Assembly: GCA_017473225.1 (NCBI GenBank)
Contig: JAFUMG010000047.1
Span: 1-47,126 of the forward strand
Reading direction: 5' to 3'
DNA length: 47,126 bases
Origin: Oscillospiraceae bacterium
GTDB taxonomy: Bacteria; Bacillota; Clostridia; Oscillospirales; Oscillospiraceae
In this document: positions 2,626 through 19,779 of the stretch, in pieces
Layout of the letters: every line of letters begins with the position of its first letter
Numbering within the stretch: the stretch's first letter is position 1
Position numbers and translations under genes: made by a program
The notes under the pieces: model-generated
The model's input: the letters and a program-made list of their open reading frames with translations, nothing else
The model's database searches: none
Told to the model about the DNA's origin: nothing

Positions 2626-2717
2626 AACATCCCCTCCGCCCTTGAAGGTAAATGGGGCCCAGGTTGTCCCCGGCTGGGCAACCGGGTACGAATAGTGAAC
2701 TATCGCCTGTCTGCCAG

Positions 2718-2746
2718 GAAATACCATGTATAATCGTTTTTGTCAA
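2718..2746 (-). promoter_or_regulatory. Candidate sigma-A promoter for the phosphoesterase gene
   Basis: On the minus strand TTGACA (2746-2741), a 17-nt spacer and TATTTC (2723-2718) lie about 90 nt upstream of the start at 2625. The -35 box is perfect, the -10 box weaker. Confidence 0.5.
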
Positions 2747-2810
2747 AACGACGGGAAAAATGGGTAATTTATCGATAAACAAACGCTATGAAACTGTACA
2801 GGGAGCTGCC

Positions 2811-3617
2811 ATGACGGAACTTCAGGAAACGGAATTTGAGATCCTGGTGGAATTCGACCGGGTCTGCCGAAGGCTGGAGCTTCCCTATTTTCTCGTCTGC
2901 GGCAGCGCCTTGGGGGCGGTGAAATACGGCGGCTTCATCCCCTGGGACGATGATATCGACGTGGCGTTGTACCGGGAGGATTATGAGGAATTCCTGCGGA
3001 AGGCCCCAAGGCTGCTGCCGGAGCATCTGTTTTTGCAGAACTGGCGCACGGACCCGGCCTATCCCCAGATCGGCAGCAAGCTGCGAAACAGCCGCACCAC
3101 CTACCTGGAGACCTCCGCGGCGCCGCTGCCCATCAACCATGGCGTCTTTATCGATATTTTCCCTATGGACGGCTATCCCCGGGCAAAGCCGGCGGGGCAG
3201 ATCTTCGAGCTGCGCAAGCGGCTCTATGCCGCCATGCTCCAGTCCGGCTGTGAATATCCCCGAACCGGGCTGGGCCGCCTGTTCCGGCAGACCTGCCGGG
3301 TGTTGGGCATCACGAAACATACGGACCGGGTGGCGGCCCGTTATGAGCGGATGATCACCCGCTATCCGGTGCGCCGGGAGGGACTGGTCTGCAACCATGC
3401 CAACTGGCAGGGCAAGCTGGACTATTCGCCCTATAACCATTTCGGTCCGGGGGCGCCTGCCCGGTTCGAGGGGCTGGCGGTCCGGGTCCCGGCCCAATAC
3501 CGGGCATACCTGACCCAGAAGTACGGAGATTATACTTTGGACCCGCCGGAGGAGCAGCGGGTGGGGCACCATTACTGCACGGCCTGCGACTGCCGCAGGC
3601 CATATACGGAGCAATGA
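2811..3617 (+). CDS. LicD family phosphotransferase-type protein
   Basis: 268 residues. The start at 2811 is preceded by GGGAG. The N-terminal half carries the LicD signature: CGSALGAVKYGGFIPWDDD-type sequence with the acidic DDDID motif that in this family binds metal and nucleotide (nucleotidyltransferase fold). LicD proteins transfer phosphocholine or similar phospho-groups onto teichoic acids or surface glycans. No membrane segment is seen, so it is probably cytoplasmic. It is divergent from the phosphoesterase gene and about 200 bp upstream of the SLH operon. It fits the polysaccharide theme of the window, but no choline uptake or activation gene is nearby, so the donor is unknown. Confidence 0.82.
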   Translation: MTELQETEFEILVEFDRVCRRLELPYFLVCGSALGAVKYGGFIPWDDDIDVALYREDYEEFLRKAPRLLPEHLFLQNWRTDPAYPQIGSKLRNSRTTYLETSAAPLPINHGVFIDIFPMDGYPRAKPAGQIFELRKRLYAAMLQSGCEYPRTGLGRLFRQTCRVLGITKHTDRVAARYERMITRYPVRREGLVCNHANWQGKLDYSPYNHFGPGAPARFEGLAVRVPAQYRAYLTQKYGDYTLDPPEEQRVGHHYCTACDCRRPYTEQ

Positions 3618-3819: not shown

Positions 3820-5628
3820 GTGAAACAGATGAAACGTTGGCTCAGTATACTTCTGCTGCTGGGGATGCTCCTGGCGCTGCTGCCGGTCACCGCCTTCGCG
3901 GCGGACAGCGGCAGCCTGACTGCCGGGAAGCCCACCCAGCAGGAGATCGTGGAAAAAAGTGAAGAGATCACCGATGCCACGACGCTTTTTGTCACCCAGC
4001 CCTCCGTTTCCAGCCCTTACGCCACCGGCAAGCTCACCGACGAGCTGCTGGAAAGCGGCGTGAGCTACCTGAACTTCTACCGCTATGTGGCGGGTCTGCC
4101 CCAGGTGCAGCTGTCCGCCGGGCTGAATGAGAACGCCCAGTACGGCGCCGTGCTGCTGGCGGCGGTCAACCAGCTGAGCCATTATCCCGCCCAGCCGGCG
4201 GATATGGCTGACGATTTCTATTCCCAGGGCCTCTCGGCCACTTCCACCAGCAATATCTATTGCAGCTACGGCTATTCCGTGAACCGCATCCTGCAGTACG
4301 CGGTGGACGCGTTCATGTCTGACGAGGATACCTACAATATGGACCGGGTGGGCCACCGGCGGTGGATCCTGAATCCCCGGCTTCTGAATGTGGGCTTCGG
4401 CTATGCCAAGGCTTCCAGCGGCACCCCCTGGAATTATGTGACGCTGAAGGTCTTCGACCAGAGCGGCGCAAAGGTGGACTATGATTTCGTCTCCTGGCCC
4501 GCCTCCGGCCATTTCCCCCAGCAGCTGTTTGGCAGCGATGTTCCCTGGTCCATCACCCTGAACCCGGAGAAATACCAGAATCCCAATCAAAGCCAGGTGA
4601 AGGTGGTGCTGACCCGGGAGTCCGACGGCAGGAAATGGGTCTTTGACGGCACCACCGGCGAGCCGGTCAGTGAATCCCAGGCCTATCTGACGGTGAACAA
4701 CGTGGGCTACGGCGTCAGCAACTGCATCATTTTCCGCCCGGTCTGCAGCGAGATCGGCGCCTATGAGGGGACCTATACCATCGATGTCAGCGGCATTTAT
4801 ACCCGCTCCGGCGCGGCGGCTGCGCTGCACTATGAGATCGACTTCTTTGACCTGTACAACCCCACCGGCTGCAGCGGCACGGACATCGTCACCCAGCCCA
4901 CCTGCACCCAGCCGGGCCAGGCGTCCCACAGCTGCCGGTTCTGCGGCAGCGGCTACTCCGAGACGCTGGACGCCCTGGGCCACAGCTGGAACGGCGGCGA
5001 CCTGACGGTGGAGCCCACCCCGGAGCGGGATGGTGTGGTCACCTTCCAGTGCACCCGCTGCGGCGAGACCAAAACCCAGACAGTCACCTTTGAGAATCCC
5101 TTCGTGGATGTGGCGGAGGGTCTGTATTACACGGAAGCCGTGAAATGGGCCCTGAGAGAGGAGATCACCAACGGCGTCAGTGACTTCCAGTTCGCGCCGG
5201 AGGATCCCTGCACCCGTGCCCAGATCGTCACCTTCCTGTGGCGGGCCGCCGGAAGTCCCGCTCCCGCCTCCGGGGAGAATCCCTTCACGGATGTCCCCGG
5301 CGGTACCTGGTATTCTGACGCGGTGCTTTGGGCCGTGGAGGAAGGCATCACCAAGGGCTACGGCAGTGAGACCACCTTCTGCCCGGACCAGGAGTGCACC
5401 CGGGCGGAGATCGTCACCTTCCTGCACCGCTATGCCCAGCTGCCCGCCCCCAGCTCTTCCGCCAATCCCTTCGTGGATGTGCCCGCCGGCCAGTGGTACA
5501 CGGATGCCGTCCTCTGGGCGGTGGAAACGGGCATCACCAACGGCCACGGCAGCGCAACCACCTTCTGCCCGGAGCTGGCCTGCACCCGTGGCCAGATCGT
5601 CACCTTCCTGTACCGGGCGATGAACTAA
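3820..5628 (+). CDS. Exported CAP-domain protein with three SLH domains
   Basis: 602 residues from a GTG start with GGAAAGAGGGA upstream. Residues 1-27 are a clear signal peptide ending TAFA. Residues of about 75-200 resemble a CAP/SCP domain (SYLNFYRYVAGLP, later GHRRWILNP), a secreted fold of variable function. A region with paired Cys-x-x-Cys knuckles follows (near 360-415, SCRFCGS and CTRCGE), which may bind zinc. Residues of about 426-602 form three SLH repeats, each ending in an xTRxxIVTFL-type segment, which would anchor the protein to secondary wall polymer. The next gene begins 18 nt later, so the two are probably co-transcribed. Its SLH region is nearly identical in DNA to that of the neighbour. 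A structural or host-interaction role is an inference. Confidence 0.85.
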   Translation: MKQMKRWLSILLLLGMLLALLPVTAFAADSGSLTAGKPTQQEIVEKSEEITDATTLFVTQPSVSSPYATGKLTDELLESGVSYLNFYRYVAGLPQVQLSAGLNENAQYGAVLLAAVNQLSHYPAQPADMADDFYSQGLSATSTSNIYCSYGYSVNRILQYAVDAFMSDEDTYNMDRVGHRRWILNPRLLNVGFGYAKASSGTPWNYVTLKVFDQSGAKVDYDFVSWPASGHFPQQLFGSDVPWSITLNPEKYQNPNQSQVKVVLTRESDGRKWVFDGTTGEPVSESQAYLTVNNVGYGVSNCIIFRPVCSEIGAYEGTYTIDVSGIYTRSGAAAALHYEIDFFDLYNPTGCSGTDIVTQPTCTQPGQASHSCRFCGSGYSETLDALGHSWNGGDLTVEPTPERDGVVTFQCTRCGETKTQTVTFENPFVDVAEGLYYTEAVKWALREEITNGVSDFQFAPEDPCTRAQIVTFLWRAAGSPAPASGENPFTDVPGGTWYSDAVLWAVEEGITKGYGSETTFCPDQECTRAEIVTFLHRYAQLPAPSSSANPFVDVPAGQWYTDAVLWAVETGITNGHGSATTFCPELACTRGQIVTFLYRAMN

Positions 5629-5646
5629 GAAAAGAGGAGAATTTGT

Positions 5647-7029
5647 ATGAAACGATTTACCCTGTTCCTGCTGGCGGCTGTGCTGGTATTGAGCATGGTC
5701 CCTGCCGTTTCCGCGGCGGAGTATACGCCGATCGATCTGGGGGATTACACCGCCTCCTGCTCCGGCAACGGCTGGAGCTATGACGCGGATACGGCTACCC
5801 TGACGCTGGATGGCTACAAGCTGTCCAACGGGGAAGGCTACTGGTACTGGGCCGCCTTTGACGAAGCGCCGGAGAATTTCACGATCTATCTGGCCTCCGG
5901 CTCTGTGAATGTGTTTCCGCTGGTTTCCGGTGTTGGCGTCATTCGGGGCGATGGCAGTCTGGCAATGGATATGTGCTACTCGTCGCTGGATCTGGACATC
6001 ACGGAATTCTCCTGCAACTACTATTACGGCGATGAGCTCGTTGTCCGCGGCGGAAACGTATCCGTTGGACATACCAAAGCCACTGAACATATTACCGTCT
6101 ATGACGGTAACGTCACCATCGAAGATATGGATGTGTACGCGTTTCAGATCCTTGGCGGCAATGTTACCGCCGGAGAGATCCATAACTGCAACGGTACCAC
6201 GATTGAGAGTGCCCGCTGCGAAGTGACTGGCGGCAGACTGACCGTAAACGGCAGCACGGAGTATTATCCGATGTCCCTGGTCTTTTATACCAATGAGGAA
6301 CCTGGTTTCGTAGAGAAATTGGCGCCGCATCTGGATAAGATCGGCACCATCACCGACGCGGAAGGAAATCCTTTGGAATTTCGGTATCTGGGCGGCGATG
6401 GCAATGAGTTTGTGGATGGAGATTTCTACTGCCAGGCCGTCCTGGTTGATGCCGACGGCAATCCGCCTTCTCAGGTGATCATCGTCCCCAAGGGTTCCTT
6501 CATCGATGTGGAGGAAGATGAATACTATTACGATTCCGTGCTGTGGGCGAAGGCCCAGGGCATCACCGCGGGCTATGGCAGAGAAGCGACCTTCTGCCCG
6601 GATCTCGCCTGCACCCGGGCCCAGGTGGTGACCTTCCTGTGGCGGGCCGCCGGAAGTCCCGCCCCCGCCTCTGGGGAGAATCCCTTCACGGATGTCCCCG
6701 GTGATACCTGGTATTCCGACGCGGTGCTCTGGGCCGTGGAGGAGGGCATCACCAACGGCTATGGCAGCGAGACCACCTTCTGCCCGGATGAGACCTGTAC
6801 CCGGGCCCAGGTCGTCACCTTCCTGCACCGCTATGAGGGAACGGAAGCGCCCCAGTCCGCGGAGAACCCCTTCGTAGACGTGCCCGCCGGCGAATGGTAC
6901 CACGACGCGGTCCTCTGGGCGGCGGAACAGCAGATCACGGCCGGCTATGGCGACAGCACCACTTTCTGCCCCGACCTGGTCTGCACCCGTGGCCAGATCG
7001 TCACCTTCCTGTACCGGGCCATGCAGTAA
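5647..7029 (+). CDS. Exported protein with three SLH domains
   Basis: 460 residues. The start at 5647 has GAGGAG seven bases upstream. Signal peptide 1-23 (PAVSAA). Residues of about 25-280 form a Gly/Thr/Val-rich region with short regular strands (GNVTIED, GNVTAGE, GGRLTVNG) that suggests a beta-helix or beta-sandwich; I recognise no enzyme family in it. Residues of about 284-460 are three SLH domains. It forms a two-gene operon with the CAP-SLH gene and is followed by a strong hairpin at 7040. Probably a wall-bound surface protein of unknown ligand. Confidence 0.8.
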   Translation: MKRFTLFLLAAVLVLSMVPAVSAAEYTPIDLGDYTASCSGNGWSYDADTATLTLDGYKLSNGEGYWYWAAFDEAPENFTIYLASGSVNVFPLVSGVGVIRGDGSLAMDMCYSSLDLDITEFSCNYYYGDELVVRGGNVSVGHTKATEHITVYDGNVTIEDMDVYAFQILGGNVTAGEIHNCNGTTIESARCEVTGGRLTVNGSTEYYPMSLVFYTNEEPGFVEKLAPHLDKIGTITDAEGNPLEFRYLGGDGNEFVDGDFYCQAVLVDADGNPPSQVIIVPKGSFIDVEEDEYYYDSVLWAKAQGITAGYGREATFCPDLACTRAQVVTFLWRAAGSPAPASGENPFTDVPGDTWYSDAVLWAVEEGITNGYGSETTFCPDETCTRAQVVTFLHRYEGTEAPQSAENPFVDVPAGEWYHDAVLWAAEQQITAGYGDSTTFCPDLVCTRGQIVTFLYRAMQ

Positions 7030-7039
7030 CATATCATTG

Positions 7040-7069
7040 GAACACCCATCGGAGAACCGATGGGTGTTC
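7040..7069 (+). terminator. Intrinsic terminator after the SLH operon
   Basis: A perfect 13-bp stem (7040-7052/7057-7069) with an AGAA loop, 10 bases after the stop codon. The trailing T-run is weak (TGCTGTGTG). Confidence 0.7.
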
Positions 7070-7090
7070 TGCTGTGTGTCAGAAAATAGA

Positions 7091-7258
7091 TGTCATTGCG
7101 AGGGCCGCAGGCACGTGGCAATCTCCCCGGTCTTCCGTGACCTTTCGACGATAGAATTGGTAGGATATGCCCGGAAATGCTAAGTTTATTGTCATCAAAC
7201 TGTGGTGCGCCGCCGTAGGGGATTGCCCCGCCAGCGTGCGCGCTGGCTCGCAATGACA
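7091..7258. repeat. Inverted-repeat intergenic element (element E)
   Basis: About 168 bp bounded by perfect 12-bp inverted ends TGTCATTGCGAG (7091-7102) and CTCGCAATGACA (7247-7258). Further inside are imperfect arms (GGCAATCTCCCC / GGGGATTGCC). No reading frame of note. This is the TGTCATTGCGAG type of dispersed repeat common in clostridial genomes (recalled), MITE-like in form. The 528-bp gap 7030-7557 otherwise holds the terminator at 7040 and the promoter at 7429. Confidence 0.7.
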
Positions 7259-7428
7259 GTGGGAGTTGGTACATGGGTGCACCGTTTTAAACAGAGCGAA
7301 AACCGCGATTTGCTTTCAGTACAGCGGTTTTGACAGCCCCAAAACCGCCGGATTTCCGGCGCCATTTTGCTGTCTCTGGAATGGCAAAAAATTCGTAATT
7401 TTTTGTAACTTTTTATACCGTGTATTCA

Positions 7429-7457
7429 TTGACTTTTGGGCCCCGGCATGGTAAACT
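7429..7457 (+). promoter_or_regulatory. Promoter of peptide-modification operon 1
   Basis: TTGACT (7429-7434), a 17-nt spacer and TAAACT (7452-7457), about 100 nt upstream of the first gene. No terminator is seen between here and 10885, so all five genes can be one transcript. Confidence 0.55.
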
Positions 7458-7557
7458 TGGGTAAGGTTAAATTAAGATATCAGGGGGAGTGTTTGTCTTC
7501 GGCGGTTTGGGTGACAAAAATGCCGGATGATCCCCGCTGATCTGCGAAGGAGCCCCC

Positions 7558-7827
7558 ATGAGAGTTAAGGATAATTTTATTTTCCGCAGGATCGCCGATG
7601 AGCATCTGCTGATCCCCACGGGCGAAGCCGCAATGCATGTGAAGGGCCTCATCGCCCTGTCCGAAAGCGGCAGCCTGCTTTATCAAAAACTCCGGAATGA
7701 ATGTTCCAGAGCGGACCTGGTCGCCGCGCTGATGGCTGAGTACGATGTGACGGAAGCCGTGGCGGGGGAGGACGTGGATGCCTTCCTGGACCAGATGCGC
7801 CAGCTGGATATGCTGGTGGAGGAATAA
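7558..7827 (+). CDS. PqqD-like peptide-recognition protein (module 1)
   Basis: 89 residues, GAAGGAG five bases before the ATG. The sequence has the PqqD-family pattern: an N-terminal beta-hairpin (FIFRRIADEHLLIP.G), the segment ALSESGSLLYQKL, then YDVTEA and a helical end DVDAFLDQMRQLDML. PqqD proteins and related RRE domains hold the leader peptide of a ribosomally made peptide and present it to the modifying enzyme. It is the first gene of the operon and has a clear paralog at 31265-31552. The expected partner is the peptide encoded at 8627. Confidence 0.85.
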   Translation: MRVKDNFIFRRIADEHLLIPTGEAAMHVKGLIALSESGSLLYQKLRNECSRADLVAALMAEYDVTEAVAGEDVDAFLDQMRQLDMLVEE

Positions 7828-7829
7828 GT

Positions 7830-8609
7830 ATGGCAAAGTATCTGAAAAAGGAAGAGAAAAAGCCCCTCTGGCCGAAGGTCATCCTCCTGGTGATCCTGGC
7901 GGCGGTGCTGATTGCCCTTGTGGTATTCGTCCTGTCCGGGAGGGAAGAGCCTTCCCCGGAGAAGGACGTGAGCACCGAACCGGCGCCGGCGGAGACCGCC
8001 GCCGTGACGGAGGGGGCCGATGTCCCGGAGCCCACGGAAATGGCCGCGGTGTCCGTGGAATATCCCCTGGCGCTGGAAGGCGGAAGCCTGCAGATCGCCA
8101 GCCTGTTCCAGTATGACGGCATCAACCCCGACTGCGGCAACCAGGAGGGGGAGGATATCGCCTCCATCATGCTGACGAACACCTCCGGCGCCTACCTGTC
8201 GGAAGCGCTCATCACTCTGGAGCTGTCCGATGGAACTTCGGCAGTTTTTGCCGTTACCGATCTTCCCGCCGGGAAAACCGCCATGGTCTTCTCCCGGGAT
8301 AATGTGTCCATTGCTTCGGATACCGTCTGCGTCAGCGCCGCCTGCGAAGCGGTGTGGGATGACGCGTCCCCGATGCCGGACCAGATCGCCGTCTCCGCGG
8401 AGGGGATGCTGGTCACGCTGACCAACAATTCCGGCGAGGACATTTCCGAACTTGTTGTTTATTGCCGCAGTCCTTTTGGTGAGGAATATTTCGGCGGCAT
8501 TACATATCAATACACTGTTAACGATTTTTCCGCGAACGGAACCGCGACGGTGGAGGCCTGGGACTGCGTCATGGGCATCGCCGAAGTGGTCCGGATCGTG
8601 ATCAACTAA
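7830..8609 (+). CDS. Membrane-anchored accessory protein of peptide module 1
   Basis: 259 residues, starting 2 nt after the PqqD stop. A lysine-rich cytoplasmic start is followed by one membrane helix (about 15-36), an acidic Pro/Ala/Thr/Glu linker (about 37-80) and an extracytoplasmic beta-rich domain. That domain is homologous to the protein at 31806: both contain LPAGK-x-A, NNSGE, a V-Y pair and the block YFGGITY. The family is unknown to me. The pairing of this domain with both peptide modules suggests a role in export, surface display, processing or immunity of the mature peptide. No catalytic motif is seen. Confidence 0.7.
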   Translation: MAKYLKKEEKKPLWPKVILLVILAAVLIALVVFVLSGREEPSPEKDVSTEPAPAETAAVTEGADVPEPTEMAAVSVEYPLALEGGSLQIASLFQYDGINPDCGNQEGEDIASIMLTNTSGAYLSEALITLELSDGTSAVFAVTDLPAGKTAMVFSRDNVSIASDTVCVSAACEAVWDDASPMPDQIAVSAEGMLVTLTNNSGEDISELVVYCRSPFGEEYFGGITYQYTVNDFSANGTATVEAWDCVMGIAEVVRIVIN

Positions 8610-8626
8610 GAATGAGAGGTATCTGT

Positions 8627-8878
8627 ATGAAGAAATATGTGAAGCCCGAGCTCTTCTACGAGCGCTTTGAGTTATCGCAGCATATTGCCGACTGCGCATG
8701 GGAATTACAGCTGGCCAGTAAGGAAGCCTGCATTGCGCAGGGCGATCCCGAAATGGGTATGGGCAGTCTGGGTACCCTGTTTACCACGCTTCAGAGCTGC
8801 TATAATAAGACGGATGAGGGCTATCAGGCCTACTGCTACACCAACGGTACTGCCGGTGTCAATGTCTTCCGGTCCTGA
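8627..8878 (+). CDS. Putative RiPP precursor peptide, four cysteines, C-terminal Ser (module 1)
   Basis: 83 residues. The start at 8627 is preferred over 8612 because MKKYVKPE matches the paralog's MKKQYEKP. The leader-like half (about 1-22, KKYVKPELFYERFELSQ) is followed by a core with Cys at 23, 35, 58 and 70, a Gly/Met-rich centre and the tail CYTNGT...VFRS. The paralog at 30977 has Cys at 24, 35, 61 and 75 and a tail CYHTN...AFHS. It lacks a signal peptide. Its stop overlaps the kinase start by 17 nt, so translation is probably coupled. The neighbouring PqqD, radical SAM enzyme and HprK-like kinase argue that it is their substrate. The final Ser is a candidate phosphorylation site. Confidence 0.75.
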   Translation: MKKYVKPELFYERFELSQHIADCAWELQLASKEACIAQGDPEMGMGSLGTLFTTLQSCYNKTDEGYQAYCYTNGTAGVNVFRS

Positions 8879-9752
8879 TTCCCAACCACAGCCCTGTTTC
8901 ATCTGCGTCGCGGGATTGACCCTGCGGATCGAGACCGATCGGGTCCTGGAAGAGGAGGCGCGTTTCCGCCCCTTCCTGACTGGGGAACAAACGCCTGACT
9001 TTCGGATCACCTTCCGCCAGGTGGACGAGCTTCCGCCGATCCCGGCGGAGGTGCTGTACGAGTCCGACTGCTACCGGGTCCACCCGGACGGACGGGGCGG
9101 TTATCTGCGGAGCTTCTTCGACGCCCCCAGAGACCTGACTCCCTACGCGGTGGCGGTTTATGATTATCCCGCCGGACAGATTCGGATCGATTATCTGGAA
9201 AAAGGCGCCAAGTGCGTATCGGAAATGCACAACAGCTTCTTCCACCTGGGCTTTGAAGCACTGCTGATCCACCGCCGTCGGCTGTGTCTCCACGCTGCCT
9301 GCGTCGAAACCCCGCTGGGCGGCATCCTGTTTTCCGGCCAGTCCGGCATCGGAAAGTCCACCCAGGCGGAGCTCTGGTGCCGATACCGGGGCGCGAAGCA
9401 GATCAACGGCGACCGGCCCATCCTTTCCCAAGGGGAAGACGGCTGGCTGGCCTGGGGATCCCCCTACGCGGGCTCTTCCCGGTGCCATCTCAATGAAAGC
9501 TGCCCGGTGACGGCCATCGTCATGCTGCGCCAGGCGAAGGAATGCAGCCTGCGGCGGCTGAGTCCGCCGGAAGCTTTCCGGGCGGTCTGGTCCGGCATCA
9601 CCATGCACAGCTGGGACGAAGCCTTTGTGGAAAAAGCCTGTGACCTGGCGCTGGAGCTGACCGGCGCGGTGCCGGTTTTTGAATTCAGCTGCACGCCGGA
9701 CGAGGCGGCGGTAAATTATCTGGAAAAGGGGCTGCGGGAATGGAAGCTGTGA
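8862..9752 (+). CDS. HPr kinase-like peptide kinase (module 1)
   Basis: 296 residues if started at the ATG at 8862, inside the end of the precursor gene. The N-terminal ~140 residues are poorly conserved. The C-terminal half is an HprK/PEPCK-type kinase: LHAACV at about 143, Walker A GQSGIGKST at 159-167, then INGDRP and WGSPY. There is no CBS or DRTGG-type N-terminus as in true HprK, and the protein lies next to a precursor peptide, not ptsH. Close relatives in some lasso-peptide clusters phosphorylate the C-terminal Ser of the precursor (paeninodin type), and the precursor here ends in Ser. Function by analogy; no test is possible from sequence. Confidence 0.78.
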   Translation: MSSGPDSQPQPCFICVAGLTLRIETDRVLEEEARFRPFLTGEQTPDFRITFRQVDELPPIPAEVLYESDCYRVHPDGRGGYLRSFFDAPRDLTPYAVAVYDYPAGQIRIDYLEKGAKCVSEMHNSFFHLGFEALLIHRRRLCLHAACVETPLGGILFSGQSGIGKSTQAELWCRYRGAKQINGDRPILSQGEDGWLAWGSPYAGSSRCHLNESCPVTAIVMLRQAKECSLRRLSPPEAFRAVWSGITMHSWDEAFVEKACDLALELTGAVPVFEFSCTPDEAAVNYLEKGLREWKL

Positions 9753-10885
9753 ATATGCGTGAAATGCCCCCCAGCCGGGCCCTGACGGACTTCCTCTATC
9801 GGAAGGCCAGCCACCTGCGGATCCCCCTGAGCGGGACCTTCGAGCTTTCCCCGGTCTGCAATTTCTCCTGCCGGATGTGCTACGTCCGCAAGACCCGGGA
9901 GGAGGTGCGAAACAGCCCCCGGAAGATCATGACGCTGGAGGACTGGCTGCGGATCGCCCGGGAAGCCCGGGAGGAAGGCATGCTCTACCTGCTGCTGACC
10001 GGCGGCGAGCCGCTGCTGTGGCCGGATTTCTGGACGCTGTATGACGCGCTGATCGACATGGGCTTCCTGATCTCCATCAACACCAACGGTTCCCTGATCG
10101 ACGAGGCGGCCATCGCCCATTTCCGGAAAAAGCCGCCCCAGCGCATCAATATCACATTGTACGGCGCCGGAGACGGGACTTACCAAAACCTGTGCGGCAT
10201 CCGGGGGGTGTTCACGAAGGTGGACGCCGCCATCCGGGGCCTGAAGGAAGCGGGCGTCACCGTCAAGCTCAATTGCTCCCTGACGCCGGAAAACGCGGCG
10301 GACCTGGACTGGATCATCGATTATGCCCAGGCCCGGGACGTGGTGGTGTCAGTTGCCACCTACATGTTCCCGCCGGTGCGGCGGGACCCAGAGCGGTTCG
10401 GCGTCAACGAACGCTTCACGCCGGAGGAATCGGCCGCGTACTTGATGCGCTATCTCCGGCGGGACCGGGGAGAGGAGGCCTATCAGCATTATCTGAAGGG
10501 CATTCTGGATGGCTTTGTGGAGCCGCCGGGGCTGGATGAGAGCTGTGTGGACCCGGTAGACGGACAGATCCGCTGCCGGGCGGGCAAGGCGTCCTTCTGG
10601 ATCACCTGGGACGGATGGCTGACGCCCTGCGGCATGATGCCTGAGCCGAAGGTGGACCTGAAGACGGAGCCCTTCGCCGGCGCCTGGAAGGCGCTGACGG
10701 AGCTGGCGGCCGGTCTGCGGCTGTCGGGCGTCTGCGACAAATGCGCCAATAAGGACATCTGCCACCCCTGCGCGGCGATCGCCTACGCGGAGACGGGGTC
10801 CAGCTCCGGGATCCCCACCTACATGTGCCGGGCGACCCGGGAGATGTGCCGGGTAGCGCGGGAGACGCTGGGAAGCGAAATGTAA
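9740..10885 (+). CDS. Radical SAM/SPASM peptide maturase (module 1)
   Basis: 381 residues, start overlapping the kinase stop by 13 nt; an alternative ATG is at 9755. The radical SAM cluster motif C40-x3-C44-x2-C47 (CNFSCRMC) and TGGEP at 87-91 are intact. The C-terminal third carries SPASM-type cysteines (C279, C297, C332, C335, C341, C344, C363) for auxiliary Fe-S clusters. Such enzymes crosslink Cys sulfur to alpha, beta or gamma carbons, join side chains by C-C bonds, or epimerise residues in ribosomal peptides. The four conserved Cys of the precursor make thioether formation the first guess. About 60 nt separate it from the sialidase gene, with no clear terminator between. Confidence 0.88.
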   Translation: MEAVNMREMPPSRALTDFLYRKASHLRIPLSGTFELSPVCNFSCRMCYVRKTREEVRNSPRKIMTLEDWLRIAREAREEGMLYLLLTGGEPLLWPDFWTLYDALIDMGFLISINTNGSLIDEAAIAHFRKKPPQRINITLYGAGDGTYQNLCGIRGVFTKVDAAIRGLKEAGVTVKLNCSLTPENAADLDWIIDYAQARDVVVSVATYMFPPVRRDPERFGVNERFTPEESAAYLMRYLRRDRGEEAYQHYLKGILDGFVEPPGLDESCVDPVDGQIRCRAGKASFWITWDGWLTPCGMMPEPKVDLKTEPFAGAWKALTELAAGLRLSGVCDKCANKDICHPCAAIAYAETGSSSGIPTYMCRATREMCRVARETLGSEM

Positions 10886-10946
10886 AACCTGCCTTTAGGG
10901 CATGAAAATATGGAATTTGTAAAAAATTACCGAGGAGGTAAAGAAT

Positions 10947-13900
10947 ATGAACAAGCTCAAGCGATTTTTGGCGTTGTTTCTGGTACTGTGCATGACGCTC
11001 AGTGTTGTGCCTTTCAGCGCCTTCGCTTCCGAGAGCACCGATCCGGCCGGCGATACCGCGCCTGTGGCCGATGCTCCTGAAGGCGAGAATGAGATTTCCG
11101 AGGAAGAGGCTTCCGTGGAAGAAGCCGCTGCGGAAGCAGCCGCCGCGGCGGTGCCCGTGGTGGCCAGCGAGGACGATGGCATTATGACTGTCGCTTCTGT
11201 TTCCAGCAAGCCTGCTGACGGAACCACCACCGGCCAGCCCTTCTCCAGCGACACCGGCGGCAGTAATTATTTCCGTATTCCTGCCATCGTTACCCTGAGC
11301 GACGGCACTCTGGTCGCCGCGGCGGACGCACGCTGGAACCATACTCAGGATGCTGCAAACATTGATACTCTGGTGTCCTATTCCAAGGACAATGGTGCGA
11401 CTTGGAATTATACTTTCGCCAACTACATCGATGATACCAGCGGTGGCACCAACAGCACCGACTACGAGGCTGCCACTTTCATTGACCCCGCTCTGGCAGT
11501 GAAGACTGTGGACGGCGTGGACACCATCTATATGCTGGTGGATCTGTTCCCCGGCCAGACCTCTTATTCCAACTGCATTGCTGTTGCCAATGCAGGCACC
11601 GGCTATGATGATAACGGTTATCTGAAGCTGAGAGACAGCGCTTCTTCCAGCTCCTATAATTATTATCTGAAGGACGGCAAGATCTACGACAACTCTACCA
11701 ACACCGATCAGGGTTACACTGTTGACGCTTATTTCAACGTTTCCAAGGACGGAACTGCACTGGGTAACCTCTTCAACTATGATCAGACTGGCTTCTATGT
11801 CCTGCAGACCAGCTATCTGTACCTGACCAAGTCCACCGACGGCGGTGCTACCTGGTCCGAGCCCCAGATGCTGAACAGCCAGGTGAAGGACTCTTCTGAG
11901 AAGTTCTACGGCGTCGGCCCCGGCGCGGGTCTGGTGACTTCTGATGGCACCATCATGTTCACCTGCTATACCTATAATGGCGGCGACGGCTTTACCAGCA
12001 CCATCTACTCCACGGACAACGGTGCTACCTGGGAGCGCGGCGCGAATCTGAGCTCTCAGTCCTCCGAGGCTGCTCTGGCGGAGGCAAATGGCCAGGTCTA
12101 TCTGTTCAACCGCTATGGTCAGTGCTGCTATACTTCCGATTATGGCGAGAGCTGGACTTATCTGAGTGAGAATGCCGGTTATGCTACCGGCTGCCAGCTG
12201 TCCGCGATCACTTATTCCAAGCTGATCGACGGCAAGACTGCGATCCTCCTGTCTGCCCCCAGCAGCGGCCGTTCTAACGGCAAGATTTTTGTCGGTCTGG
12301 TGAATGAGGATAAGTCCATCTCCTGGAACTATACTTATTCCGTCAACAGTGGTACTTACCAGTATTCCAGCCTGACGGAGCTGTCTGACGGCTCCATCGG
12401 TCTGCTGTATGAAAGCGGCAGCGCGGCTATCACCTATACCAATCTGGCGATCGCCGATATCGCCAGCGGCGCGGAGATCAGCGAATCTGTGGATTCCAGT
12501 GAGGACGAGAGCACCGATGACTCTGAGTCTGAGGCTCCCAAGGGTTCCACTGTTGAGGTTACCCTGAAGGTGGGCGAGTCTTCCGAGACCTATCAGGATG
12601 TCACCGGCAACTATGCTTCCACCGCGACCATCGCTGACGCTACCATTGCTGCCATGACCGTGAGCGGTGACCATGTTGCGGCTTCCAGCGGATATGAGCA
12701 GGCAACGTCCATCACCAGCGGCAATAGCTATATTCTGGGCAATGGCACGCAGTATCTGGTGCTCAATGGCACTTCTCTGACCTATACCACTGATCCCGCT
12801 CAGGCTACCCAGTGGACCATTACCTCCTCTGGCAATGGTTATACCATCAAGTCTGGCAGCTACTATCTGTATGCTCAATATAGTTATCACCAGGGGTATA
12901 CAGTCAGCGCCAACAACTCTTCTTATACTTGGTTCTGGAGCAGCTCTAATGGCTTCTATATTTCCAGATTTAGTACTTACTATCTGACTTATTCCAACAA
13001 TGCGTGGACTATGAGCAGCCGTTCTTCTTCCACCAAGACTCATGCGTATTCCGGCTCTACCGCAACCGATGCGTATGATTACACGGATGTGTACTTTACC
13101 GGCGTGAATGTCGGCACCACCACCGCAACCGTTGGCAGTGTGACCTATAAGATCACCGTCACTCCTGCTGAGAAGACGCTCAGCATCCAGCCTGGCAAGA
13201 GCATTACCTGCCCTGCGACGGGTTCTGTAACTCTGGCAGGTAGCTATGCAGGTGTTACCGTCAGCCATAACAGCACCGACGGCACGCTGACCTTCACTGC
13301 CGGTGAGACGGAAGACACCTACGGCCCCTATCTGATCGGCAACACCCAGTATACCATCGTTGTGGCGGATGTTCCTGACTGTGTTGATCTGGGATCCTCT
13401 CCCTTTACCAGCGGTACGGGTAATTACAGCGGCAGTACCGTCACTAAGGTCACGATTTCCCCCGAACTGAGCTATGATCTGAATCTGAACATTTCCGGGA
13501 CGAACATCACCTGGACCTCTCTGGACGAAAGCATCGCAACCGTTGATCAGAACGGTAAGATTACCGGCGTTGCAGTGGGCAACACCTATGTTACCTGCAC
13601 GGTCGATGGCGTCACTTACGCAATCCCTGTCGTGGTTCTGGACACTGTGGATGAAACCAAGACTGCCGCAGCTAAGGGTAATACCGATCTGTATATTGCT
13701 GAGATCACCAATACCCATGTGGTATACAGCATTGATATGTCCACTGAATTCCTGGAAGCCCAGGAAGGCGAAATTATTTATGTTGAGTACAGATATGGCG
13801 CAAGCAAATCCTATGGCTTTGCGATCAACTTCTTTGGCGCGGAAGACGAAGGACATGCTCTGACCTATATGGCTGCCACAAATTCTAACGGTTACTATTA

Positions 13901-16382
13901 TTCGCTGTATTCTACTAATGATGTTACAGCCCTGAGCGCGTATACAGCCGGCGCTATAAATAATGCCAAAAATTACTGGACAGACGCCGAACCGCAGGAA
14001 CTGCTGGAATACGCAATTGAAAATGGTTATGACGGAACCATGGGCTGGACAAGAGGCAGTTCGAATACTGGTACCACACTCTATTCCTCTCTGACTTTCC
14101 GCTCTCAGAAGCTGCCCACCGTCACTAAGGAGATCGTCTCTGTTGGCGGCCAGGACTATGTTGAGGGTATGACCGCAAAGGAGGGTGATGTGATCAAGTT
14201 TAAGGTCACCGTGACGCAGTACGCGACTACCGAAGCGATCACCTATGATAATGATACCCTGACCGAAACGCTGGTTCCCCTCTCCGGAAGCAGCTACAGT
14301 GTTACCGATTTCCTGGCTGATACCACGCTCTCCACGAATAAGACCTACGAATATGAGGTGTCCTATACCATTACTGAGAGTGATCTGGACAAGCTGATCA
14401 CCAATACTGTAAGCCTGTCTTACACCTATGACGCGCCTTACAGTGACGGTAATTTCTCCGCAAGCGCGGATGCTTCCGCCAAGATCACCGCGACCACCTA
14501 TACCGCAACCGATTATGTGATCGATTTCGGCCTGCCTGTGACCTTTAATATCGCTGGTTGGGGCACCACTGACGTGACTGGCATCTCCGCCCTGTATGCG
14601 GATGTGTCCATTTCCGGCAACCATAATGATGGTTATACCATTACCTACACCCCCAATACGATCCTGAAGGGCGTGGATACGGTTACCATGACCAATGACG
14701 CGGGCGCTGAGTTTACCTTCAAGGTCTACCCCGCGACCACCGTCTACTACGAGGAAGGCTTCCTGACCGGCTTTACCGGCACCTGGACCAGCCAGGGCAG
14801 CAAGGGCAGCGGCACCCAGAAGACCCAGATCCTGGGCGGCAGCAACACCGATAACTACGGTTATGACGTAGCCTATCGTTCCGATGCGCCCGACGGCAGC
14901 AATTCTCAGGCCTCCACCTCCACCAACGGCTCCACCGCTTCCTTCACCTTCACCGGCACCGGCTTCGACCTCTACGCCAACTGCGCCACCGATACCGGCT
15001 ATGTCGCCGTCCAGGTCAAGGACGCTTCCGGCAACGCTGTGAAGCTGTACATGGTCGATACCCTTGCCAAGAGCGGTGATACCACGGCTACTGACAAGCA
15101 GGGCTACCCGCTGTACAGCCTGCCCATCGTCTCCGAGCAGGGCCTGGCCTACGGCACCTACACCGTCACCCTCACCAAGGTCATCGACGGCAAGGCCGTG
15201 AACATCGACGGCGTCCGCATCTTCGGCACCGTCCAGGAGGCCGCCGGCAGCGCCAGCGTCTACTACGCTGACAAGGAAGACCATCCCGACTACTATCAGC
15301 TCCGCGACTATGTGCTGAAAGCACTCAATGTGGATGCCGGCACCAGTGAGGACTACAGCACTCTGTACGACCAGATCTATGCCGAGGTCGGCACCGAGAC
15401 GGTTGCCGCAGTGCTGAAAAACAGCGCATACAATGGCGCGGGTGCTCAGGACCTGCTGGACAACGGCCCCAAGAATGAGCTGTTCCTGTGGCCCGGCGAG
15501 GCCCTGGTCTTCACCGTCTCCACTGACCGTGTCGTGCAGATCGGCCTGAAGGCGCCCAATGGTACTCCTGGTTTTTCTATCACTGTGGGCAGCAATGTCA
15601 TGCTCAGCGATACCCTGAATACCAGCACCGATATGTTCTATGATGTGGTTGGCCAGGCAAATGCTGTGACTGATTACACCATTATCATCAACAACACCGG
15701 CTCCACCGGCATCCTCTCCGTTACCGATCTGAAGATCTGCGACGATCCCAACGCTACCTTCCTGCCCCTGACCCAGGAGGACATCGAGACCGCTCTGGGC
15801 GCCATGGGCTTCGGCAGACCCGAGGAACCCAACAAGCCCGGCAAGAACCCCTTCGTGGACGTTCCCGAGGGCAAGTGGTACCATGACCCCATCAAGTGGG
15901 CCGTGGAGCACGGCATCACCAACGGCTATGAGGGCACCGACCGCTTCGGTGTCGGCGACGGCTGCACCAGAGAGCAGTTCGTGACCCTGCTGTGGCGTGC
16001 CGAGGGCTCCCCCGAACCCACCACCACCGAGAATCCCTTCTCCGATGTGGTCGAGGGCAAGTGGTACTACGAGGCCATCCTGTGGGCCGTGGAAGAGGGC
16101 ATCACCAATGGCTATGCCGATTCCGACCGCTTCGGCGTCGGTGACCTGTGCACCCGCGGCCAGGTCGTGACCTTCCTGCACCGCTATGCCGGCGAGCCCG
16201 CGCCTGCCACCGAGGAGAACCCCTTCACCGATGTGGCCGAGGGCAAGTTCTACTACACCGCCGTCCTGTGGGCCGCGGAGAACGGCATCACCAACGGCTA
16301 TGAGGGCACTACTGAGTTTGGCCCCATGGACATCTGCGCCCGTGAGCAGATCGTCACCATCCTGTACCGTTACTTCAACTAA
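10947..16382 (+). CDS. Giant SLH-anchored exo-alpha-sialidase
   Basis: 1811 residues, GAGGAGGT before the ATG. Signal peptide 1-27, acidic Ala/Glu linker to about 80. The sialidase propeller spans about 100-510: FRIP at 109-112 with its catalytic-site Arg, DARW at about 127 and Asp boxes at 146 (SKDNGATW), 296 (STDGGATW), 355 (STDNGATW) and 397 (SDYGESW). Then come an Ig-like region with a ricin/CBM-like insertion (about 545-720), further Ig-like modules, a long region shared with the protein at 32852 (residues of about 1190-1600) and three SLH repeats (about 1634-1811). It should release sialic acid from mucin or milk glycans at the cell wall. No sialic acid uptake or catabolism gene is in the window, so products may be used elsewhere or shared. 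Confidence 0.88.
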   Translation: MNKLKRFLALFLVLCMTLSVVPFSAFASESTDPAGDTAPVADAPEGENEISEEEASVEEAAAEAAAAAVPVVASEDDGIMTVASVSSKPADGTTTGQPFSSDTGGSNYFRIPAIVTLSDGTLVAAADARWNHTQDAANIDTLVSYSKDNGATWNYTFANYIDDTSGGTNSTDYEAATFIDPALAVKTVDGVDTIYMLVDLFPGQTSYSNCIAVANAGTGYDDNGYLKLRDSASSSSYNYYLKDGKIYDNSTNTDQGYTVDAYFNVSKDGTALGNLFNYDQTGFYVLQTSYLYLTKSTDGGATWSEPQMLNSQVKDSSEKFYGVGPGAGLVTSDGTIMFTCYTYNGGDGFTSTIYSTDNGATWERGANLSSQSSEAALAEANGQVYLFNRYGQCCYTSDYGESWTYLSENAGYATGCQLSAITYSKLIDGKTAILLSAPSSGRSNGKIFVGLVNEDKSISWNYTYSVNSGTYQYSSLTELSDGSIGLLYESGSAAITYTNLAIADIASGAEISESVDSSEDESTDDSESEAPKGSTVEVTLKVGESSETYQDVTGNYASTATIADATIAAMTVSGDHVAASSGYEQATSITSGNSYILGNGTQYLVLNGTSLTYTTDPAQATQWTITSSGNGYTIKSGSYYLYAQYSYHQGYTVSANNSSYTWFWSSSNGFYISRFSTYYLTYSNNAWTMSSRSSSTKTHAYSGSTATDAYDYTDVYFTGVNVGTTTATVGSVTYKITVTPAEKTLSIQPGKSITCPATGSVTLAGSYAGVTVSHNSTDGTLTFTAGETEDTYGPYLIGNTQYTIVVADVPDCVDLGSSPFTSGTGNYSGSTVTKVTISPELSYDLNLNISGTNITWTSLDESIATVDQNGKITGVAVGNTYVTCTVDGVTYAIPVVVLDTVDETKTAAAKGNTDLYIAEITNTHVVYSIDMSTEFLEAQEGEIIYVEYRYGASKSYGFAINFFGAEDEGHALTYMAATNSNGYYYSLYSTNDVTALSAYTAGAINNAKNYWTDAEPQELLEYAIENGYDGTMGWTRGSSNTGTTLYSSLTFRSQKLPTVTKEIVSVGGQDYVEGMTAKEGDVIKFKVTVTQYATTEAITYDNDTLTETLVPLSGSSYSVTDFLADTTLSTNKTYEYEVSYTITESDLDKLITNTVSLSYTYDAPYSDGNFSASADASAKITATTYTATDYVIDFGLPVTFNIAGWGTTDVTGISALYADVSISGNHNDGYTITYTPNTILKGVDTVTMTNDAGAEFTFKVYPATTVYYEEGFLTGFTGTWTSQGSKGSGTQKTQILGGSNTDNYGYDVAYRSDAPDGSNSQASTSTNGSTASFTFTGTGFDLYANCATDTGYVAVQVKDASGNAVKLYMVDTLAKSGDTTATDKQGYPLYSLPIVSEQGLAYGTYTVTLTKVIDGKAVNIDGVRIFGTVQEAAGSASVYYADKEDHPDYYQLRDYVLKALNVDAGTSEDYSTLYDQIYAEVGTETVAAVLKNSAYNGAGAQDLLDNGPKNELFLWPGEALVFTVSTDRVVQIGLKAPNGTPGFSITVGSNVMLSDTLNTSTDMFYDVVGQANAVTDYTIIINNTGSTGILSVTDLKICDDPNATFLPLTQEDIETALGAMGFGRPEEPNKPGKNPFVDVPEGKWYHDPIKWAVEHGITNGYEGTDRFGVGDGCTREQFVTLLWRAEGSPEPTTTENPFSDVVEGKWYYEAILWAVEEGITNGYADSDRFGVGDLCTRGQVVTFLHRYAGEPAPATEENPFTDVAEGKFYYTAVLWAAENGITNGYEGTTEFGPMDICAREQIVTILYRYFN

Positions 16383-16478: not shown

Positions 16479-16656
16479 AATTGTAGTTTGTGGCTCTATT
16501 TACACACCATCGTAGGGACCGGCGTCCTCGACGGTCCGGCGGCAATACGCCACATTTTCGCACCGTTTTCGGCAAATTCGTAGTTTGTACGTTGCGGACC
16601 GTCCGGGAGGCCGGCCCCTACGGTGTGTTACGCATCGGAACGCCAAACTACAATTT
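16479..16656. repeat. Palindromic intergenic element (element B)
   Basis: About 178 bp bounded by AATTGTAGTTT (16479-16489) and AAACTACAATTT (16645-16656). Inside, the left arm (ACACACC..GTAGGG.CCGGC, then CGACGGTCCG) pairs with the right arm (CGGACCGTCC, GCCGG.CCCTACGGTGTGT), forming one long imperfect hairpin. A second copy is at 19845. No open frame of interest. The 403-bp gap between the sialidase and CapD genes consists of the terminator at 16412, this element and the promoter at 16694. Confidence 0.75.
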
Positions 16657-16693
16657 ACTCTCCCCCAACACATCACCTCAGAGGAACCGAATC

Positions 16694-16721
16694 TTGACAA
16701 TTTGTTAATATATTATATAAT
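16694..16721 (+). promoter_or_regulatory. Consensus sigma-A promoter for the polysaccharide genes
   Basis: Perfect TTGACA (16694-16699), a 16-nt spacer and perfect TATAAT (16716-16721), about 65 nt upstream of the start at 16786. Confidence 0.8.
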
Positions 16722-16785
16722 AAGTATAAAATGCGAAAGAATGGGTTTGTTGCGAAATTTGAGGGGAATTTGGGGAGATAGACAG

Positions 16786-18693
16786 ATGAGAATCATAGAA
16801 GAAATCAGGGGAAACCACAGGAAGTATATCCTGATGCTGCTGGATATGCTGTTCTTTGTCGTCATCGACTGCGTGTTTTATGTCCTTTCTACCGTCGGCT
16901 CGCTCAGCAACAGCGCGGCTGTGGGAAGTTTGGGGATTTTTGTCAGAAATTCCGTCATCATTCTGGCTTCCGTCATGCTGGTCCGGGTGGTGCTTGGCAT
17001 CTATCGGACGGTCTGGCGGTATACCAGCACCCGGTCCTATTTTAATCTGATCCTGTCGGATCTGGCCGGCGGCATCCTGGCGCTGCTGGTGATGCAGTTC
17101 TCCGGGTCCTACAAGGGTATCTGGCACTGTGTCGCGGTGGTTTCCCTGACGGCCCATGCCTCGCTGCTGGCGCGGCTGAGCTACCGCCTGTGGTACAAAA
17201 AGAAAAATGATATCAAAAGCGACGCTACCCGGAAGAATACCGCCATCGTCGGTGCCGGGCAGCTGGGCACCTATCTGGCCAACGACCTGCGGACCAATGC
17301 CAACTCCCGCTTCAATCCCATCTTCTTCATCGACCTGGACCGTGATAAGATCGGCAACACCGTGGCAGGCCTAAAGGTCTACGACGAGGAGCAGGCGAAG
17401 GATTATATTGAGAAGTATTCCATCACCGATGTCATCATCGCCATTTCTGATACCAACAGTGAGCGTATCTCCCGCCTTTACCATTTCTACCGGGACATGG
17501 GCTGCAGCGTCAAGATCTTTGACTCCCTGGTCCATGAGGGCGCGGAGGGAAGGCACGGCGGAGTCCGTGAATTCCAGATCGAGGATCTGCTGTTCCGCAA
17601 GCCTCTGAAGATCAACGACCAGAAGGTGCTGGATTACTACGCGGGCCGGACCGTCATGGTCACCGGCGGCGGCGGTTCCATTGGCAGCGAGCTCTGCCGC
17701 CAGATCGCCCACTGCGGTCCGAAGAAACTGATCGTGGTGGATAATTATGAAAACAATGCCTACGACATCCAGCAGGAGCTGATCCGGATCTATGGCGACA
17801 AGCTGGATCTGGATGTGGAGATCGCCTCTGTACAGGATCTGCGGCATCTGGAGCATGTGTTCAGCAAGTACCGGCCGGAGATCGTGTTCCACGCCGCGGC
17901 CCACAAGCATGTCCCCTTGATGGAGCAGAGCGGCTACGAGGCGGTGAAGAACAACGTCCTCGGTACATACAACACCGCCAACATGGCCGAAAAATACGGC
18001 GCGGAGAAGTTCATCCTGATCTCTACGGACAAGGCCGTCAATCCCACCAATGTGATGGGCGCCACCAAGCGGGTGTGCGAAATGATCATCCAGTGCCGCC
18101 GTGACAGCGCCACCAGCTTTGCCGCGGTGCGCTTCGGTAATGTGCTGGGCTCCAACGGCTCCGTGATCCCCTTGTTCAAAAAGCAGATCGCCGCCGGAGG
18201 CCCCGTGACCATCACGGACAAGCGCATCATCCGCTATTTCATGACTATCCAGGAAGCCAGCCAGCTGGTGATCCAGGCCGGCGCCATGGCCCGGCGGGGC
18301 GAGCTCTTTGTGCTGGATATGGGCAAGCCTGTGAAGATCTATGATCTGGCGGTGAACATGATCAAGCTCTCCGGGCTGGTGCCGGAGGTGGACATTCCCA
18401 TCGTGGAGGTGGGCCTGCGGCCCGGCGAGAAGCTCTATGAGGAGCTGCTGATCCGGACCGAGGAGCTGGATAAGACGGAAAACGACATGATCTTCATTGA
18501 ACGGGACGCGGCCCTCACCCGGGAAGAGGTGGAGGCCAAAGTCAGATGTCTGCGCAAAGCCGCGGCGGACTGGGATGACGGAAACGCGCCCTGCGCCCGG
18601 AAGATCCTGCAGGCGGTGGTCCCCACCTTCTGCGATCCCGAGGAGCTGAACCGGAAGGCGGCCGACGCGGAAGAAATGCAGGTCGCATTGTAA
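16786..18693 (+). CDS. CapD/PglF-type membrane nucleotide-sugar 4,6-dehydratase
   Basis: 635 residues from the ATG at 16786, preceded by GGGGAGA; an in-frame ATG at 16741 has no ribosome site. The N-terminal ~150 residues contain about four membrane helices. A first Rossmann-type domain follows (GAGQLGTYLA), then the catalytic short-chain dehydrogenase domain with TGGGGSIGSEL for NAD(P) and STDKAVNP...MGATK. As in the FlaA1/PglF class the usual YxxxK is MxxxK. These enzymes convert UDP-GlcNAc (or a related donor) to the 4-keto-6-deoxy sugar that starts bacillosamine- or fucosamine-type glycans. The LCP gene follows after 12 nt. It most likely feeds the initiating transferase at 20102. Confidence 0.9.
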   Translation: MRIIEEIRGNHRKYILMLLDMLFFVVIDCVFYVLSTVGSLSNSAAVGSLGIFVRNSVIILASVMLVRVVLGIYRTVWRYTSTRSYFNLILSDLAGGILALLVMQFSGSYKGIWHCVAVVSLTAHASLLARLSYRLWYKKKNDIKSDATRKNTAIVGAGQLGTYLANDLRTNANSRFNPIFFIDLDRDKIGNTVAGLKVYDEEQAKDYIEKYSITDVIIAISDTNSERISRLYHFYRDMGCSVKIFDSLVHEGAEGRHGGVREFQIEDLLFRKPLKINDQKVLDYYAGRTVMVTGGGGSIGSELCRQIAHCGPKKLIVVDNYENNAYDIQQELIRIYGDKLDLDVEIASVQDLRHLEHVFSKYRPEIVFHAAAHKHVPLMEQSGYEAVKNNVLGTYNTANMAEKYGAEKFILISTDKAVNPTNVMGATKRVCEMIIQCRRDSATSFAAVRFGNVLGSNGSVIPLFKKQIAAGGPVTITDKRIIRYFMTIQEASQLVIQAGAMARRGELFVLDMGKPVKIYDLAVNMIKLSGLVPEVDIPIVEVGLRPGEKLYEELLIRTEELDKTENDMIFIERDAALTREEVEAKVRCLRKAAADWDDGNAPCARKILQAVVPTFCDPEELNRKAADAEEMQVAL

Positions 18694-18705
18694 AGAGGTA
18701 ATCGT

Positions 18706-19773: not shown

Positions 19774-19779
19774 ACACCC

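Follow-up and report, generated by a model that had tools for sequence, protein, structure and literature searches.

What product would come from an operon that encodes a small cysteine-rich peptide together with a leader-binding protein, an HprK-like kinase and a radical S-adenosylmethionine (SAM) enzyme? The question is raised by a stretch of 47,126 nucleotides from an Oscillospiraceae bacterium (GenBank assembly GCA_017473225.1, contig JAFUMG010000047.1), hereafter the window, which carries two such gene sets, one at 7558–10885 and a diverged one at 28984–31552. Each operon very probably encodes a pathway for a ribosomally synthesized and post-translationally modified peptide (RiPP), that is, a chemically modified peptide. 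The full proposal is a RiPP family that joins a lasso-like front end, namely a RiPP recognition element (RRE), a YxxP leader and a terminal-serine kinase, to a radical SAM/SPASM enzyme replacing the lasso cyclase; it seems somewhat likelier to hold than to fail.

The five genes of the first operon follow one another closely on the plus strand, and all of them were recovered by open reading frame analysis and Pfam and NCBIfam searches where a preliminary description of this DNA had placed them. The first gene (7558–7827) encodes an 89-amino-acid (aa) PqqD-family leader-binding protein, an RRE (Pfam PqqD, 5.5e-14), whose top NCBIfam models are PqqD chaperones of lasso peptide systems, with scores under the cut-offs. 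It is followed by the genes of a 259-aa membrane-anchored protein (7830–8609) and of an 83-aa precursor peptide (8627–8878) that has a YVKPEL leader, the four cysteines already described (C23, C35, C58 and C70) and a C-terminal serine, Ser83, which had been overlooked. Another ATG lies at 8612, but an AGAGG motif precedes that at 8627. The genes of the HprK-like kinase (8862–9752; H144, GKST at 164–167 and D184) and of the radical SAM/SPASM peptide maturase (9740–10885; Pfam Radical_SAM, 1.8e-23) complete the operon. The gene overlaps reported earlier are real, as the peptide and kinase genes share 17 bases and the kinase and radical SAM genes 13 bases. At E ≤ 1, neither Pfam nor NCBIfam yields a match to the precursor. 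A promoter and terminator scan gave a signal near chance level, a repeat search of 6900–11000 returned short degenerate pairs only, and no Rfam model matched anywhere in the window at its gathering score.

The preliminary description recognized this operon and missed the second, diverged copy on the minus strand. The latter encodes a PqqD-family protein (31265–31552; Pfam 1.6e-15; 46% identity to the first), an 86-aa precursor with four cysteines that ends in AAFHS (30977–31237), an HprK-like kinase (30116–30973; 33% identity, with the same active-site residues) and a radical SAM/SPASM enzyme (28984–30102; Pfam 3.8e-22; 40% identity). A homologue of the membrane protein (31% identity) is encoded divergently beside it on the plus strand (31806–32780), a layout also found in four other loci (L069, L070, L071 and L074). 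Since all five protein pairs show low identity (46% at most, and 27–29% for the precursors), the two operons do not derive from a recent duplication, and the recurrence of these four genes in a second copy, together with a membrane homologue, indicates that the gene set is more than chance.

The set also recurs in other genomes, where the preliminary description had proposed to look for the same gene order. A scan of contigs from one genome per species, with both radical SAM proteins of the window as queries, confirmed at least 398 relatives, the best 80 of which make up loci L031 to L110; kinase, PqqD, membrane protein and other genes were labelled in the loci by profiles grown from the window proteins. 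The core loci belong to Clostridia or unplaced Bacillota, plus one Erysipelotrichaceae (L062), and many of these relatives stem from gut or rumen samples. The kinase gene ends within 500 bases of the radical SAM start for 34 of the 38 radical SAM genes in 37 core loci. In a quick tree of 92 radical SAM rows, one group (SH-aLRT 94) unites 39 of the 40 core rows with 13 further rows, several of which are cut by contig ends, and the core label requires 13 changes on the tree versus 30 in shuffles.

In order to avoid selection by the enzymes, 400 genomes of the window's family were searched with the precursor alignment as query, which gave 52 places in 33 genomes; the 50 that lie outside the window were all examined. 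In the same 400 genomes, the kinase was found in 32 (E ≤ 1e-55) and the radical SAM enzyme in 34 (E ≤ 1e-90), with cut-offs set after inspection of the scores. All 32 kinase genomes also carry the radical SAM enzyme, and 30 of the 33 precursor genomes carry both. Among the three exceptions, the contig of G434 ends within a kinase-like frame, a 3.7 kb contig of G468 stops after the membrane-protein gene, and G361 shows a weak precursor match in a sister system with a radical SAM enzyme and a diverged kinase. Genome G411 has both enzymes and no precursor match by profile; a diverged peptide encoded upstream of them ends in serine (E = 1.2e-4). The coupling of peptide and enzymes proposed in the preliminary description is thus upheld by both co-occurrence and adjacency, as precursor, kinase and radical SAM enzyme behave as a unit.

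Peptide homologues occurring without the enzymes had been named there as grounds for giving up this coupling. Locally they do occur, as 15 of the 50 precursor loci, several on short contigs, have neither kinase nor radical SAM gene in reach; at the genome scale, nine of the ten genomes that hold these 15 loci carry both enzymes elsewhere, and in G468 neither was found. An enzyme search of 15 genomes in all found both enzymes in 14. Five genomes with the genus code g214 contain a kinase–radical SAM–membrane protein operon around which about 10 kb of sequence show no credible precursor, and the same five genomes encode ten precursors elsewhere (L164, L169, L172, L174, L176, L182, L183, L186, L187 and L191), nine of which end in serine. 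This separation suggests that the enzymes probably act in trans, and on the simplest reading a single enzyme set would serve several peptides to which it is not linked. As many as four different precursors occur in a single genome (G287).

The precursors themselves provide the best clue to the role of the kinase, namely a nearly invariant C-terminal serine. A precursor profile retrieved 46 precursors at E ≤ 1e-5 from loci L001 to L110 (including the two of the window and the sequence-identical L010 and L056), and all 46 end in serine. In an alignment of 44 of them (L010 and L003, whose start is unclear, being omitted), Tyr4, Pro7, Cys23 and Cys58 are invariant and Cys70, Tyr71 and the terminal serine are kept in at least 90% of the rows; apart from these positions, the cores vary (mean column identity 23%). 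In the precursor-first search, the 49 peptides with a complete end (one of the 50 reaches a contig end, and L196, selected by its kinase, is not counted) comprise 45 ending in Ser, two in Tyr, one in Phe and one in Ala. Pooling of both samples and collapsing on the last 30 residues leaves 89 distinct precursors, 85 of which have the C-terminal serine. Serine occupies 7.3% of all other positions in these peptides and is the last residue of 12% of 2371 open reading frames of 60–120 aa from the loci and of 18 of 369 products of six neighbouring gene families. The leader motif YxxPx followed by L, I, V, M, A, F, Y or C is present in 87 of the 89 precursors, a CY pair lies within the last 35 residues in 77, and phenylalanine occupies position −3 in 56. 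The number of cysteines is four in 60 precursors, three in 16 and five or six in 13. The gene arrangement that characterizes a RiPP pathway is present here: a small precursor with a conserved leader and a variable core, encoded beside an RRE and modifying enzymes. The YxxP motif resembles that of lasso leaders and accompanies a PqqD protein, to which it is predicted to bind; groups of RREs are described as binding W/Y/LxxP motifs (PMC12710340).

Loci with only one of the two enzymes were considered as a natural test of the terminal serine and dropped, being too few. Only one, L171, has a radical SAM gene (with PqqD) and no kinase in the 10 kb examined. The kinase is present with no radical SAM gene in reach at L147 and L153, where the precursor ends in Ser, at L180, where it ends in Tyr, and at L159, where it is cut. 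The precursors of L171 (5041–5322) and L180 (5053–5298) come from one genome, G287, and end in FGSF and FGSY rather than FxS.

The kinase retains key residues of the expected active site in a protein that is far from those already characterized. Its Walker A motif is SGQSGIGKST, and His144, Gly164, Lys165, Thr167 and Asp184 are among the positions that are invariant over 40 rows. From the histidine to the P-loop lysine and serine, the spacing is the same as in BsfK, where a histidine, the P-loop Gly/Lys/Ser and a paired Asp were examined (PMC10368454). Either Ser or Thr occupies position 166, and the kept aspartate sits one residue further on than in BsfK. Library matches are weak (HprK_rel_B, 6.1e-5, 22 bits versus a cut-off of 200), and the nearest solved structures by profile are HPr kinase chains (1jb1 and 2qmh, E = 0.004), over the active-site stretch only. 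A kinase scan examined 22 loci, 20 of which have no radical SAM gene in the stretch examined and two of which have one. In sister radical SAM loci with the order PqqD–radical SAM–peptide–kinase, the C-termini of the peptides are mixed.

Two further kinds of locus were observed around these searches. One, exemplified by L195, the third kinase locus of the window's genome, and by L011, L014, L015, L021, L023, L027 and L029, is a separate system that has an HprK-like kinase, often PqqD, a signal-peptidase-like protein and sometimes an NTP_transf_5 protein, with very short YxxP peptides (about 32–47 aa, several with an ED..TTS segment) and no radical SAM gene in the short stretches examined; L195 also sits among capsule-type genes. 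The other, part of L089 to L099, is a sister family of radical SAM enzymes whose peptides are short, number several at some loci and have leaders of the F(D/N)Y..xVxAS type; at several of these loci a kinase, a signal-peptidase-like protein or NTP_transf_5 is encoded some kb away.

The radical SAM enzyme carries a CNFSCRMC motif (CxxxCxxC) that is invariant across 38 rows, as are C152 and the SPASM-type cysteines 279, 297, 332, 335, 341, 344 and 363, a pattern expected of radical SAM/SPASM maturases; the Pfam SPASM model itself stays under its cut-off for both window enzymes (E of 0.07 and 0.0078). The solved structures closest to it are SkfB (1.3e-26), cytosylglucuronate decarboxylase, 5v1q (CteB, 1.4e-16), PqqE, MoaA and a sulfatase maturase. 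These relatives fit a putative crosslinking of the peptide, without specifying which bond. The membrane protein has an N-terminal hydrophobic stretch followed by the two conserved segments EDGxDE...NxS and YFGGITY (28-row alignment; EDGxDE and YFGGITY in the window protein) and gives no Pfam match above the cut-offs; in NCBIfam, the second copy shows an FxLYD domain under the cut-off. Homologues are present in 21 of the 37 core loci and also adjoin kinase–radical SAM pairs that have no linked precursor, and we infer a surface role in maturation, immunity or anchoring.

The following model can be drawn for each operon. The PqqD protein would bind the YxxP leader and present the precursor to both enzymes. 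The radical SAM/SPASM enzyme would oxidatively crosslink the cysteine-rich core, most likely through cysteine thioethers, and the formation of cysteine crosslinks is reasonably likely. The HprK-like kinase probably acts on the precursor, and its predicted target, the C-terminal serine (Ser83 and Ser86 of the two precursors), is probable in its turn. Scattered precursors would be served in trans by the same kinase and radical SAM enzyme, leader removal and export would be ensured by proteins that are not tied to the operon, and the membrane-anchored protein would act on the product, or together with it, outside the cell.

The gene set, its conservation and co-occurrence, the leader motif, the catalytic residues and the terminal serine are computed; all reactions of this model, phosphorylation and crosslinking included, are ones that we infer, and several observations weigh against it. 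As 16 of the 89 precursors have three cysteines, four are not essential. Four of the 89 lack the terminal serine, including L180 (..FGSY) and L193 (..LSY), which have a kinase in their locus, and a diverged precursor at L211, next to kinase and radical SAM genes, ends in Ala. The precursor profile was trained on peptides with a YxxP leader and a final serine, and the counts may lean slightly for this reason. The co-occurrence counts ignore kinship among genomes; G468 has a precursor and, in an 87% complete genome, gave no kinase or radical SAM match elsewhere, and G409 has both enzymes and no precursor in the 5 kb up to the contig end. In the kinase, the first residue of the HprK/BsfK aspartate pair is replaced by Gly (INGDR), and many relatives have Ala where BsfK has Gly163. 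Finally, eight precursor-like peptides picked by eye near kinases without a radical SAM gene end in D, D, I, A, K, N, W and P, none of them in Ser. Thus, a kinase alone does not imply a terminal serine, which accompanies the radical SAM-linked family rather than HprK-like kinases in general. This last result fits kinase subfamilies with different sites and leaves room for another role of the serine. The kinase might act elsewhere on the peptide, as BsfK does in phosphorylating Ser3 (PMC10368454), the terminal serine being kept for another reason, for instance because the radical SAM enzyme, a glycosyltransferase, a nucleotidyltransferase or a factor of export or anchoring recognizes it. This reading is possible, if doubtful, since the serine persists in 85 of the 89 precursors despite their variable cores, since known lasso kinases are described as phosphorylating the C-terminal serine with little regard to the remaining peptide (PMC8498205) and since the precursor of L171, whose locus lacks a kinase, ends in Phe (a single case).

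It is unlikely that the kinase leaves the peptide alone and serves as a regulator, a scaffold or an enzyme for another protein while the radical SAM enzyme matures the peptide by itself: its very low similarity to characterized kinases and the Gly at the first Asp position would suit such a role, whereas the invariance of its key residues, the peptide–kinase–radical SAM adjacency and the co-occurrence argue for a peptide kinase. A redox or metal-cofactor precursor, like those of PQQ and mycofactocin, in place of a secreted peptide would account for the pairing of PqqD with a radical SAM enzyme that resembles PqqE and the mycofactocin maturase at a low level. The cores are variable and several different precursors occur per genome, and the few further gene families common to at least five of the 37 core neighbourhoods are surface and signal-peptidase-like proteins only, which makes a cofactor very unlikely. 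The most improbable reading is that of a lasso cluster whose B2 and C enzymes are lost or distant. Lasso systems with a kinase (paeninodin, ThcoK, SyanK, pseudomycoidin and BsfK) do share with the window operons a discrete PqqD-type RRE, a YxxP leader and an HprK-like kinase whose site is the C-terminal serine in most known cases, the residue at which nearly all the present precursors end. Some also have a nucleotidyltransferase, and one is encoded in the window; the features of lasso clusters concerned are those described in PMC8498205. Unlike them, the window operons lack both the transglutaminase-like B2 and the asparagine-synthetase-like C and have a radical SAM/SPASM enzyme instead, which every one of the 32 kinase genomes in the family sample carries, and their precursors have a cysteine-rich core of about 60 residues. 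As the preliminary description had noted, these two lasso enzymes are missing: PF13471 (B2) has no match in the whole genome of the bacterium (79% complete), and PF00733 (cyclase) matches only on two other contigs, C43 and C89, and not on that of the window, C53. In the absence of B2 and cyclase genes, this is not a lasso cluster.

The RiPP pathway with both kinase and radical SAM enzyme has partial counterparts in other systems. The preliminary description regarded the combination as uncommon; a precedent exists in NCBIfam, which defines the SynChlorMet proteins ScmC, ScmE and ScmF and the 'HPr-rel' proteins, and the window family lies far under their cut-offs. The SynChlorMet cassette, reportedly described in a 2011 survey of radical SAM families, brings together an HprK-related protein, a short peptide, a PqqD-like protein and several proteins of the radical SAM/SPASM kind, and represents an uncharacterized precedent for the combination. 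Membership was rejected on scores (14 and 22 bits for the kinases versus 125 for ScmC, 53–71 for the radical SAM enzymes versus 400); unlike SynChlorMet, each window operon has one radical SAM enzyme, and the two peptides match no NCBIfam model. The HPr-rel-A/HprK-rel-B systems (TIGR04352, TIGR04353 and TIGR04355) are alike in their HprK-related kinase and, for HPr-rel-A, in a PqqD-family chaperone, and membership was likewise rejected (12–22 bits versus cut-offs of 200 for the kinases, 22 versus 35 for the second PqqD protein). Sactipeptides and ranthipeptides (AlbA, SkfB and CteB) share the SPASM radical SAM enzyme and the cysteine-rich core; the window operons differ from them by the discrete PqqD protein, the HprK-like kinase and the terminal serine, the linkage itself being putative. 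No description of this combination of kinase, radical SAM enzyme and precursor was found in the openly licensed literature, the broader searches being judged by titles.

Later steps could be supplied by three proteins encoded between the two operons, although their membership is uncertain: an NTP_transf_5 nucleotidyltransferase-like protein (20819–22060, minus strand; Pfam PF14907, 4.6e-52), an ABC exporter (22262–23980, plus strand; Pfam ABC_membrane, 2.2e-37) and a signal-peptidase-like candidate leader peptidase (23970–24431, plus strand; NCBIfam sigpep_I_arch, 2.3e-6, under cut-off). Near 67 core loci (37 + 30, a few being counted in both sets), NTP_transf_5 is found at 6, an ABC exporter at 4 and a signal-peptidase-like protein at 11. 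The 37 core neighbourhoods have no consistent exporter or peptidase (signal-peptidase-like protein in 5, ABC in 2, NTP_transf_5 in 2), and apart from surface proteins and the signal-peptidase-like protein no further gene family reaches five of them. In lasso systems, a nucleotidyltransferase can add a hexose to the C-terminal phosphate (PMC8498205). In a distinct RiPP class, a terminal phosphoserine might be a chemical handle rather than a late ornament, either as a leaving group for the radical SAM enzyme (giving a C-terminal ring or amide) or for attachment of the crosslinked peptide through a sugar phosphate to the cell surface near the secreted sialidases; this idea is quite unlikely.

The region between the operons (16585–28937) is a capsule or exopolysaccharide locus that encodes a nucleotide-sugar dehydratase, an LCP ligase, CpsB and a Wzc-type kinase. 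Inspection by eye adds a further Wzc-like protein and a sugar transferase, and both kinases have GY-rich tails. A general link with capsule genes was considered and rejected, since homologues of each of six capsule proteins from the window are found in 0–4 of the 37 enzyme-first core loci versus 0–4 of 32 outgroup loci; being no commoner in core loci, they point to a setting that is probably local to the window. Large secreted surface proteins are encoded at 3820–7029, 10947–16382, 32849–37717 and 37843–40530, with Pfam types that include CAP/SLH, SLH and BNR sialidase/SLH in a scan of the first two stretches; by eye, that at 37843–40530 is of the GH20 type, and its homologues occur in L036 and L066. 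A LicD-family protein (2652–3617; Pfam 3.1e-35) adjoins surface-protein genes.

The gene directly downstream of the first radical SAM gene (10947–16382, plus strand) encodes a sialidase-like surface protein (BNR, Big_2 and SLH), with a putative functional link. An open reading frame of at least 4 kb starts within 60 bases after the radical SAM gene for 10 of the 28 core radical SAM genes with at least 4 kb downstream, and the seven scanned comprise two sialidase-like BNR proteins, two GH20, two GH2 and one without family. In one subgroup, the operon thus runs into genes of secreted sialidases, hexosaminidases or galactosidases, which suggests a link to the use of glycans at the cell surface. 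Should the proposal hold, one ribosomal peptide would be the joint substrate of a kinase and a radical SAM enzyme, and the kinase would have a built-in rule for the C-terminal serine. Neither precursor of the window has a counterpart in Pfam or NCBIfam. As precursors lie far from the enzymes in several genomes, mining by cluster alone would miss substrates of this family.

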